A stretch of DNA of 64,000 bases. Source: an uncultured Bacteroidaceae bacterium. GTDB taxonomy: Bacteria > Bacteroidota > Bacteroidia > Bacteroidales > Bacteroidaceae. The stretch is taken from positions 1 to 64,000 of the forward strand of contig CAJOCU010000004.1 of the NCBI GenBank assembly GCA_905233765.1, given 5' to 3'. This document shows, piece after piece, positions 60,625 through 63,604 of this stretch (position 1 is its first letter; each line of letters opens with the position of its first letter). The notes beneath the pieces were generated by a model. The model saw only the letters and a list, made by a program, of their open reading frames with translations. It had not been told where the DNA came from and ran no database searches. The position numbers and the translations under genes are program-made.

Positions 60625-63036
60625 ATGAAACACCTTTTCTCTTTTCTACTCTTGGGATTGGCAGCTCTTTCCGCCTCCGCCCAACCGGACTTCGGTCAAG
60701 CCCGCCTGCTGAACGATGGCTGGCGGTTCCGTTTGGGTGATGATAGCGCCGCCATTGCGCGCGACTACGACGACCGCCAATGGCAACGCGTACAACTGCC
60801 CCACGACTGGAGCGTCGCACAGCCGATGTCCCCCGACTGCGGTTCCTGCCAGGGCTACCTCCCCGGCGGCATCGGATGGTATCGCCGCACGCTCACGGTG
60901 AGCGCCGACGACCTCGCCGACGGTCGCAAGCTCTACATCTATTTCGAGGGTGTCTATAACCGCTCCTCCGTCTATGTCAACGGTCATCTGCTCGGCTACC
61001 GTCCCAGCGGATTCGCCTCGTTCCTCTACGACCTCACACCGCACCTCCGAGCCGACCAGGAGAATGTTTTGGCCGTGCGCGTTGACCACTCGTGCCAGAA
61101 CGACTCGCGCTGGTACACAGGCTCCGGCATCTATCGTCCCGTGTGGCTCGTCAGTGCTCCAGCCACCCATCTGGCCTTGTGGAGTACGTCTTATAAAGTA
61201 AAGATTCCCAGTGTAAAGAAGGCCGTGATTGAAGTAAAGGTGGAAGCTCCACTCCTCACCCATCCCGTCAGGGAGGGGAACTTTTCACTTGCCATTGAGA
61301 TTCTTGATGCTGACGAAAAAGTCGTCGCCACCAAGCGCAGCCCCCTCCCCGCCGAAGGGGTCGGGGGTGGGTCTTTCTCCATCTCCTCTCCAAAGCTCTG
61401 GACCCTCACCTCGCCCTACCTATATAAGATACGCACGCGCCTGATGGAAGACGACCACGAGGTGGACCGCTCCGAGGTGCCCCTTGGACTGCGAACCACC
61501 GCGTTCTCCCCCGAGAAGGGCTTTGCCCTCAATGGGCAGTGGATGAAGGTCAAGGGCGTCTGCCTGCACGACGATGCCGGAGCCCTCGGCACCGCCGTTC
61601 CCGCTGCCGTGTGGAAGCAGCGCCTGACAGCCCTCAAGCGCCTCGGCGTCAACGCCATCCGCATGAGCCACAACCCACACGCCCCGGCCCTTTACGCACT
61701 CTGCGACACACTCGGTCTGCTCGTCATGGACGAAGCCAGCGACGAATGGGAGTTCCCCAAGCGCAAGTGGCTGAAAGGCTGGAACCAAGGCAAGCCCGGC
61801 TTCGAAGGCACCTACGACTACTTCGAGGAATGGATCGACCGCGACGTAGCCGATATGGTGCGCCGCGACCGCTGCCACCCCAGCATCTTCCTCTGGAGCA
61901 TCGGCAACGAAGTCGATTACCCCAACGATCCCTACTCCCACCCCGTGCTCAACGGCAACGGCAGCGACTTCACACAGCCGGCCTATGGCGGCTACAAACC
62001 CGAGCAGCCCAATGCCGAGCGCATCGGCATCATCGCCCAGCGTCTGGCCAAGATTGTGCGCAGCCTCGATGACTCGCGTGCCGTCACAGGCGCCCTCGCC
62101 GGTGTCGTCATGAGCAATGAGACAGCCTACCCCGAGGCTGTGGACGTCGTGGGCTACAACTACACCGAGAGCCGCTATACCACCGACCATCAGCGCTATC
62201 CGCAGCGCGTCATCTACGGCAGCGAGAACCGCCACGACCTCCCCGCGTGGAAAGCCGTCCGCGACAACGAGCACATCTTCGGACAGTTCCTGTGGACAGG
62301 TATCGACTATCTCGGCGAGAGCGGCCCCTGGCCAGCACGTGGCTCCACCGCAGGGTTGCTGGACCTCGCCGGCAACGTGAAACCCCTCGGGCACTACCGC
62401 GCCGCGCTGTGGGCCGAGCAGCCTGTGTGCTATATCGGCACCACACCCCTCATGCAACCCAATGGTCGTCGCAACCGTAACCGCAACTGGGTCTCCCCCT
62501 ACGCTCCCGCCGTCTGGAACTATGAGGACGGCCAGCGCGTCCGCGTCGTCTGCTACACCAACGCTCCGTCTGCACGTCTGCTGCTGAACAACACTCCCAT
62601 AGGCGGCGACCCCAAGCGCGACGAAGACACCGACATCCTCTACTGGGACATCGACTATCAGTCCGGAACGTTGCGCTGCGAAGCCACCAACGGCGCCACC
62701 TCCACGATCACCACCTGCGGACGTCCTTATGCCCTGCGCGCTACCCTCGACCCCACCGCATCGGCGTCCGGCGACGTCGTCCTCATCCATATCGAGGTCG
62801 TTGACGAAGACGGCAACTTCGTACCGCTGGCCGACAATGACATCACCTGCCACATCGACGGTATCTCACGTCTGCTCGGCTTGGAGAACGGCGACATCAG
62901 CGACACCTCCAACAAAACCGACCGCCACGAACGCGCCCACGCCGGCCGCCTCCTGGCCTACATCACCCGAGGCAACGCCACCATCCGCTTCACCTCTCCC
63001 CTCCTCCGCCCAGCCGAAGTGAGCGTGTCCCATTAG
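60625..63036 (+). CDS. Glycoside hydrolase family 2 (beta-galactosidase-like), secreted
   Basis: The 803-residue protein has a signal peptide (MKHLFSFLLLGLAALSASAQ). The GH2 order follows: sugar-binding jellyroll (about 25-190; LPHDWSVAQPM, GWYRRTLTVS, GVYNRSSVYVNGHLLGYRPS), Ig-like domain, and TIM barrel (about 300-600; VKGVCLHDDAGALG, AIRMSHNPHAPALYALCDTL). The acid/base is Glu429 (SIGNEVDYPND) and the nucleophile Glu534 (YGSENRHDLPAW). C-terminal Ig-like domains (RVVCYTNAPSARLLLNNTPI) complete it. It probably cleaves beta-galactosides or related sugars in the periplasm. No SusCD pair is adjacent, so it is not in a classical polysaccharide-utilisation locus within this window. Confidence 0.93.
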   Translation: MKHLFSFLLLGLAALSASAQPDFGQARLLNDGWRFRLGDDSAAIARDYDDRQWQRVQLPHDWSVAQPMSPDCGSCQGYLPGGIGWYRRTLTVSADDLADGRKLYIYFEGVYNRSSVYVNGHLLGYRPSGFASFLYDLTPHLRADQENVLAVRVDHSCQNDSRWYTGSGIYRPVWLVSAPATHLALWSTSYKVKIPSVKKAVIEVKVEAPLLTHPVREGNFSLAIEILDADEKVVATKRSPLPAEGVGGGSFSISSPKLWTLTSPYLYKIRTRLMEDDHEVDRSEVPLGLRTTAFSPEKGFALNGQWMKVKGVCLHDDAGALGTAVPAAVWKQRLTALKRLGVNAIRMSHNPHAPALYALCDTLGLLVMDEASDEWEFPKRKWLKGWNQGKPGFEGTYDYFEEWIDRDVADMVRRDRCHPSIFLWSIGNEVDYPNDPYSHPVLNGNGSDFTQPAYGGYKPEQPNAERIGIIAQRLAKIVRSLDDSRAVTGALAGVVMSNETAYPEAVDVVGYNYTESRYTTDHQRYPQRVIYGSENRHDLPAWKAVRDNEHIFGQFLWTGIDYLGESGPWPARGSTAGLLDLAGNVKPLGHYRAALWAEQPVCYIGTTPLMQPNGRRNRNRNWVSPYAPAVWNYEDGQRVRVVCYTNAPSARLLLNNTPIGGDPKRDEDTDILYWDIDYQSGTLRCEATNGATSTITTCGRPYALRATLDPTASASGDVVLIHIEVVDEDGNFVPLADNDITCHIDGISRLLGLENGDISDTSNKTDRHERAHAGRLLAYITRGNATIRFTSPLLRPAEVSVSH

Positions 63037-63069
63037 TAGATTTCTACAAAGCTTCAAGCTTTATCATCG

Positions 63070-63255
63070 TTTCTCACAGGTGAGAAAGATTTTTCTCATG
63101 CGTGATAAACTTTTTTCTCACGCGTGATAAAGATTTTTCTCACGTGAGAAAAATTTGTCCCATGCGTGGTACAAAACATAAGACCACGGTCTTACGGCTC
63201 GAGGACCGCGGTCTTATGGCCGGAGGACCATGGTATTCTAATTCAAGGACCGGCC
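63070..63255. repeat. Array of nine palindromes with 21-22-bp spacing
   Basis: Dyad centres fall at 63078.5, 63100.5, 63122.5, 63143.5, 63164.5, 63186.5, 63208.5, 63229.5 and 63251.5. The first five units share TTTCTCA.GnG.TGAnAAA or its TTTGT.CCA variant; unit 4 (63133-63154) is a perfect 22-bp palindrome with core CTCACGTGAG. The last four share a GGACC/GGTCTT core (TAAGACCACGGTCTTA, GACCGCGGTC, ACCATGGT, ACCGGCC). Two more palindromes (GTAGATTTCTAC at 63036-63047, AAAGCTTCAAGCTTT at 63048-63062) precede it out of phase. Confidence 0.85.
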
Positions 63256-63301
63256 TACCCTCCCCCATCCTATTCTGTGTGAATCGTCAAAAAAGCGTTC
63301 C

Positions 63302-63398
63302 AACCTACACCTTTTCACCCAACCTTCACCCGAACCTACACCCACTTATCCATCTCATATTCTGACATTTCACTATCAAAGGTGTAGGTATGTAGGTT
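63302..63398. repeat. AACCTACACC iteron-like repeats with an inverted copy
   Basis: AACCTACACC occurs at 63302-63311 and 63333-63342, with a variant AACCTTCACC between them. GGTGTAGGTATGTAGGTT at 63381-63398 is the inverted counterpart. The elements could form a long-range hairpin or be binding sites. Confidence 0.7.
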
Positions 63399-63495
63399 AT
63401 TTGGAGAAAATTTACGCGCGCGTGTTTCACCCGCGAACCTTATTTATATATTCCCTCCTTTCCGGAGGGTTCGTAGGGTTTTTCGCAAAAGTTTT

Positions 63496-63583
63496 TTCAA
63501 AACAGTTAGCACATGTCACTTTTTTGACTGATTGAAGTGCCCCCAAAAGTTGAACTGTAGTGATATGTGCTAACTATTTTGAA
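63496..63583. mobile_element. 88-bp inverted-repeat element (MITE-like or long hairpin)
   Basis: Two 25-base arms (63496-63520 and 63559-63583; core AGTTAGCACAT/ATGTGCTAACT) match at 23 positions and enclose 38 bases. The loop contains GAAGTGCCCCCAAAAGTTGA, which resembles terminal sequences of IS3-family elements as I remember them. No transposase gene is present. It could be a miniature element, an IS relic, or simply a strong hairpin. Confidence 0.5.
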
Positions 63584-63604
63584 TAAAAAAATTTTTATTT
63601 TGAC

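Follow-up and report, generated by a model that had tools for sequence, protein, structure and literature searches.

What kind of element is a run of evenly spaced palindromes that lies near the end of a 64,000-nucleotide stretch of Bacteroidaceae DNA? The stretch (positions 1 to 64,000 of contig CAJOCU010000004.1, here called the window) comes from the genome of an uncultured bacterium, the host, and a preliminary description, made from the letters alone, had noted nine palindromes in it and considered a partition or recombination site. The window array is real. It belongs, as one copy among many, to a dispersed class of mostly intergenic repeats that this genus and other Bacteroidaceae of gut and rumen carry, and is not the single site that had been considered. 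Orthologous arrays carry different words on the same step, so that symmetry and spacing are kept while the sequence changes, as the preliminary description had supposed.

The window array was delimited by its dyad centres and by a chain score, which rises with palindromic arms and with steps close to 22 bp. Its units are as follows.

63067..63241, no strand: phased palindrome array, eight clear units
63070..63087, no strand: unit 1, TTTCTCACA.GGTGAGAAA, centre 63078/79
63092..63109, no strand: unit 2, TTTCTCATG.CGTGATAAA, centre 63100/01
63114..63131, no strand: unit 3, TTTCTCACG.CGTGATAAA, centre 63122/23
63135..63152, no strand: unit 4, TTTTCTCAC.GTGAGAAAA, centre 63143/44
63156..63173, no strand: unit 5, TGTCCCATG.CGTGGTACA, centre 63164/65
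63178..63195, no strand: unit 6, ATAAGACCA.CGGTCTTAC, centre 63186/87, first of three AAGACC-class units
63200..63217, no strand: unit 7, CGAGGACCG.CGGTCTTAT, centre 63208/09
63222..63239, no strand: unit 8, GGAGGACCA.TGGTATTCT, centre 63230/31
63245..63261, no strand: weak ninth unit of the preliminary description, 5 of 8 pairs, left out of the count

The dyad centres of the eight units are all even and are spaced by 22, 22, 21, 21, 22, 22 and 22 bp. The ninth palindrome, near 63252-63253, lies 23 bp beyond unit 8 and matches in five of its eight pairs; it was not counted, because about 20% of random places, measured on Bacteroides loci, do equally well within tolerance. An odd-centred AAAGCTTCAAGCTTT is found at 63055, 23.5 bp upstream. 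The words fall into two classes, TTTCTCAC/GTGAGAAA followed by AAGACC/GGTCTT, and the step is unbroken where the class changes, exactly as first described. The array scores 44.8, compared with 15.3 for the runner-up real chain in the window and a maximum of 18.1 in 40 dinucleotide-preserving shuffles of the whole 64 kb; runs of equal regularity did not occur in shuffled sequence.

Among 127 distinct arrays in the loci scanned, 416 of 478 steps are exactly 22.0 bp when 21-23 bp are allowed, a count obtained with a score that mildly favours 22 and from loci many of which were fetched because they bear arrays. The step is thus 22.0 bp and not the two-turn helical mean of 21.6 bp given at first. 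A sample of 857 kb, composed of 80 loci fetched only for encoding a relative of the gene upstream of the window array, regardless of arrays, holds six chains of at least three units at 22 bp and at most two at any other period from 16 to 44; 22 is also its commonest tandem-repeat period (24 of 227 arrays). Congeners without AAGACC hits (20 stretches, 374 kb) have three chains at 22 bp and at most one at any other period, and ten rounds of shuffling of the same 374 kb gave one chain in total. Five genomes from other genera of the family (340 kb) contributed two chains at 22 bp, the clear one being TGTATTTAGCCTACATAC with four units at locus L415, and one at 17 bp. Other families of the order (258 kb) yielded two chains, a borderline AT-rich one at 22 bp and another at 19 bp, both of which we read as chance, and 200 kb of E. 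coli held no chain at 22 bp. A chance origin is ruled out by the shuffles, the period counts in unselected loci and congeners, and the E. coli scan. The 22-bp step is kept by unrelated words in congeners, in another genus of the family and in Bacteroides. Non-palindromic 22-bp tandem repeats adjoin palindromic ones at L029 (1232-1490) and L032 (near 1560-1720), so this step is not limited to palindromes.

In the host genome (2.63 Mb), the window array has 48 BLAST matches at E <= 10, with self and reverse-strand matches included. The window and 20 stretches around these matches contain 17 arrays of at least three units that pass a score of 16; five of the 20 stretches are without any such array. 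Several words share one lattice, namely AAGACC/GGTCTT, TTTCTCAC/GTGAGAAA, GTTCCATG/CATGGAAC, TTCGGTCG/CGACCGAA, TTACCATG/CATGGTAA and others, and changes from one class to another leave the step intact. The AAGACC pair pattern is present in 21 of 139 genomes of the genus, the host included, and absent from 392 genomes of other genera of the order; its reversed control had no match in any genome listed. No phage record was similar at E 1e-5, and no viral contig held two exact AAGACC units. When 96 arrays were placed relative to genes with a simple frame finder, 50 were 3' of one gene, 16 lay between convergent genes, 27 were neither and 3 were inside long reading frames. Arrays are mostly outside genes or in linkers.

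The word sets also differ between species. The two centre letters, counted in exact AAGACCNNGGTCTT units of the loci scanned with strands pooled, are TA in 16 of 16 units in genome G119; AC 17, GC 12 and AT 1 in G149 (n=30); AT 6, AA 1 and AC 1 in G107 (n=8); AA 13, AT 9 and AC 1 in G118 (n=23); and AC 10, GC 6, AT 3 and TA 1 in the host (n=20), and they are mixed in G143. Two further listings agree with these centres for the units that they list. Runs of three units are the commonest in the host (16 of 21), G149 (9 of 20), G107 (5 of 13) and G118 (7 of 20). In G119, a long array at L175 (8950-9450) adjoins an AAGACC cassette, and its words shift gradually through AGGTTAAGTTAACCT, AAGTTAACTTAACCT, AAGTAATATTAACCT and AGGAATAGTATCCCT.

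Orthologous arrays were compared at two genes in particular. A sulfatase gene has a three-unit array in frame at one site in five genomes (G107, G149, G143, G118 and the host); the array is decayed in G118 and missing from G112 and G121. Its spacers are much alike in G107, G149 and G143, and its centres are species-specific (AT three times in G107; GC, AC, GC in G149). At one codon of the cobB linker, three units read TTTCCCACGCATGGGAAA in the host, AAGACCACGGTCTT in G149, GTCTCACCCGTGGTAC in G112 and AAGATGCAGGTCTT in G121. The word differs among these four species at one register, within an alignment that crosses a poorly conserved stretch and may be off by one codon, and it may have been inserted independently at a permissive junction. 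A cobB match is present in 29 of 61 genomes. At the cobB loci L200, L202-L207 and L212-L215, the gene is single in some congeners and divided in others: 10 of the 29 have two adjacent or overlapping genes, split exactly at the place where other congeners have arrays. Further cobB genes are fused at that point, with other repeats or none. Two congeners (L193, L194) have a different, CCCTCCTTGGGAGGGG-like repeat in this linker, and L196 has a 20-base inverted repeat there.

The orthologous units aligned by eye comprise 14 sets and 203 cells, in which species pairs within a set are not independent; left out were the decayed sulfatase array of G118, the cobB arrays of the host and G112 (words not alignable) and four further orthologous loci. 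This set has 16 changes in both arms with pairing kept, compared with a mean of 3.5 for shuffled arms, and none of 2000 arm shuffles reached 16 such compensated double changes. Random drift with no dyads retained in relatives, which would have counted against the preliminary reading, was thus not what the orthologues showed: pairing-preserving two-arm changes exceed the shuffles, although one-arm changes that create or destroy a pair are also common. Unit number among orthologues changes in whole 22-bp steps (three units in G107, one in G149). The initial contrast between geometry and simple duplication survives in part, in that symmetry is kept, and fails in part, in that whole units are gained, lost and expanded and cassettes recur.

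The symmetry extends to the centre of the unit. In 30 arrays (128 units) detected without use of the inner two pairs, 55% of units have a complementary innermost pair, compared with 27% expected from composition, and 73% a complementary next-innermost pair, compared with 53%. Spacer midpoints are complementary in 41% versus 37%. We therefore rejected spacers as second dyads: they look palindromic (GGCC), yet show no covariation (0.41 vs 0.37).

The arrays of Bacteroides have the same step with other words. The forward strand of the single 3.7-Mb contig of Bacteroides sp. Marseille-P3684 has 167 copies of AAGTATNATACTT and a single one of the reversed control. The 100 units listed form 29 groups, of which 19 are threes, and 69 of 71 within-group steps are 22; one array has 7 units and another 17, with units and spacers nearly identical. 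A second word, CAAACA/TGTTTG, carries the lattice on to one or both sides in several Bacteroides arrays. From 20 stretches, two of them with only a single unit, 18 arrays could be placed: 9 between convergent, 8 between co-directional and 1 between divergent genes. Some cores are surrounded by inverted flanks. In examples taken from the second to fourth 11-base bins, flanks are mirrored more within one copy (0.57, 0.57, 0.65) than between copies (0.39, 0.47, 0.48), while the spacers of one array are unmirrored (0.38 vs 0.54 for random spacer pairs). MITEs are marked by terminal inverted repeats and by duplication of the target site at a clean insertion; no clean empty insertion site was seen among the orthologues compared.

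What could hold such a lattice in place? We propose, tentatively and with a little less than even confidence, that the arrays are dispersed binding platforms for a putative dimeric DNA-binding protein, with one dimer per two turns. The proposal starts from features apparent in the sequence, namely the lattice, the dyads, the species-differing word sets and the change of words with register kept. Each palindrome would be the site of one dimer, and with a dimer every two turns all of them would sit on one face of the helix. Neighbouring dimers would touch, so that a short run, often a core of three, could form a cooperative platform. Half-sites would drift and the putative reader or readers would drift along with them, giving each species its own centre letters. 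Unit-centre symmetry, the fixed two-turn step, the frequent threes and the joint change of both arms together fit best with a dimeric reader that needs neighbours. Cooperative binding by a dimeric protein, suggested already in the preliminary description, is what we too infer from sequence. The position of arrays after genes, and in Bacteroides often between convergent genes, suggests a role in chromosome organisation or as a barrier rather than in promoter control, which is the least certain part of the proposal. MetJ met boxes and plasmid iterons are adjacent, same-face sites bound by touching dimers, each with one word, one protein and few sites. By analogy, such lattices may indicate how the arrays could work, whereas the arrays have many words, scattered sites and mixed, ordinary neighbours; iterons are direct repeats next to the gene of a replication initiator, and a Pfam scan of 18 neighbour proteins gave no replication initiator and one VapE-like protein.

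More broadly, the arrays could represent a period-locked dyad mark, in which two-fold symmetry every 22 bp is conserved instead of sequence, usually in short runs with species-specific, co-evolving words, and on which a fast-evolving reader or reader family would assemble and organise the chromosome. We consider this possible, with considerable doubt, and we are not aware of any bacterial element whose defining features are symmetry and step and not its sequence. Repeat finders that rely on sequence will not bring these arrays together, since different genera use unrelated words. If the arrays are read, the genus would supply many natural experiments on how a DNA-binding protein evolves in step with its sites across the genome; if they have no reader, they would show clearly how mutation or copying at a fixed step can maintain palindromes.

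Several observations weigh against a dimeric reader. The protein is predicted and has not been found, and several unrelated words in one genome would be hard for one protein to recognise, which is a weak point. The 18 neighbour proteins in the Pfam scan have no common theme. In 38 cells of the orthologue set, a change confined to one arm creates or destroys a pair. Runs in G119 most often have two units (11 of 19), not three. By our own reading, at least 6 of 20 stretches from that genome contain a recurring cassette of three different units with different flanks; longer flanks are also shared by some of these stretches. Copying of cassettes within a genome does occur, and it accounts for part of the species uniformity. 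Finally, duplication of units alone could yield a constant step.

The main rival, somewhat unlikely in our estimate, holds that the arrays are selfish or passive dispersed repeats like MITEs, REPs or Rickettsia palindromic elements: an enzyme would copy short cassettes with palindromic ends without gain to the host, and the words of a species would be the copies active in its lineage. The recurring G119 cassette, the location of arrays outside genes or in linkers, and a window copy that is lineage-specific as far as eight congeners show are all consistent with it. At orthologous sites, however, the words are altered in place, each species having its own, and the spacers remain similar; the step is identical for unrelated words in other genera. 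Nor do the eight genomes with at least 10 pair-pattern hits encode a full-length RAYT (PF01797): G119, G121 and G150 had no match, and G000, G107, G118, G143 and G149 had only partial matches, which cover about 30-50 positions with E from 7e-5 to 8e-4 and in some cases lie just over the cut-off. REP end tags are not in excess either, since, of 605 units, 45 adjoin GTAG and 52 adjoin CGTC, compared with 29-52 for four control tetramers.

REP, BIME and REPIN sequences of the GTAG and CGTC families are described as dispersed short palindromes that lie for the most part downstream of genes and between convergent ones, at times within genes, and that form families specific to a species; Bacteroidetes, too, are reported to have CGTC families (PMC3733652). 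REPs are defined by sequence, one end carrying a GTAG or CGTC tag, and the GTAG families also by RAYT transposases. The arrays resemble them in dispersal as short palindromes, gene-end placement and species-specific families, and differ in the tag and RAYT results above and in a fixed 22-bp lattice that joins different words. Rickettsia palindromic elements are about 150 bp long, are notable for lying in genes and can be in frame in unrelated ones (PMC10969869). The arrays are likewise palindromic repeats able to sit in frame inside unrelated genes, but their unit is 22 bp and only the 3 of 96 noted above lie inside long reading frames. Dispersed bacterial satellites are tandem repeats from a single family that is spread over intergenic locations, and the sections read do not mention palindromic 22-bp units with changing words (PMC6749651). 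In line with the preliminary description, searches of open papers, PMC5771137, PMC3733652, PMC10969869 and PMC6749651 among them, brought up no named element with such a design.

Mutation alone, which we think distinctly unlikely, would have hairpin-templated repair perfect the palindromes and 22-bp slippage multiply them, with neither reader nor transposase. It agrees with the whole-step changes in unit number between G107 and G149, with the nearly identical arrays of 7 and 17 units, and with the mirrored flanks within one Bacteroides copy. It leaves unexplained the constant 22-bp step across genera and the centre letters common genome-wide within a species, and it sits poorly with spacers that are unmirrored within an array and whose midpoints are not dyads. 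A selfish repeat or template switching explains parts of the data; neither accounts for the constant step across genera.

It is very improbable that the arrays work as strings of RNA hairpins, whether as terminators or as processing or stability elements. As RNA, the window array folds well (z -9.9), and the 50 arrays 3' of one gene and the 16 between convergent genes would suit such a role, but folding is expected of any palindrome and 27 of the 96 arrays are 3' of neither neighbour. In 214 units oriented to the sense strand, arm mismatches are G.T in 35 cases and A.C in 48, without an excess of G.U; at the innermost pair G.T is slightly in excess (31 to 23). Innermost pairs, which are impossible in an RNA loop, are still complementary above expectation. 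Rfam returned 19 matches to conserved structured RNA families, every one under its gathering score. These were mostly microRNA families, whose matches palindromes attract.

Least credible are ParB-family partition sites of the parS or sopC kind: two of the array words have TCAC/GTGA and GACC/GGTC cores in common with chromosomal parS and F-plasmid sopC, but 136 of the 139 genomes of the genus have ParB_N, in most cases as a single match and with or without AAGACC arrays, with one match in seven of the eight array-rich genomes and three in G150; its copy number does not track arrays across the 139 genomes, and dozens of scattered sites with several words per genome are unlike one parS.

The immediate surroundings of the window array include one gene and a module that also adjoins arrays elsewhere in the host genome, three places in all.

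60625..63036, forward strand: upstream gene, a glycoside hydrolase reading frame with the array after its stop
63259-63440 of the window: module that combines repeats of the AACCTACACC type with a stretch like CACACAGAATAGG
2703-2840 of L009: the same module
2149-2260 of L011: the same module

We take the upstream gene to be a GH2-like glycoside hydrolase. No array was visible after its orthologue in eight congeners, one of which, G107, has a contig that stops shortly beyond it. Window positions 63492-63587 hold an inverted repeat of 29 bp whose arms are 90% complementary around a loop of 38 bases, possibly the end of a mobile element.
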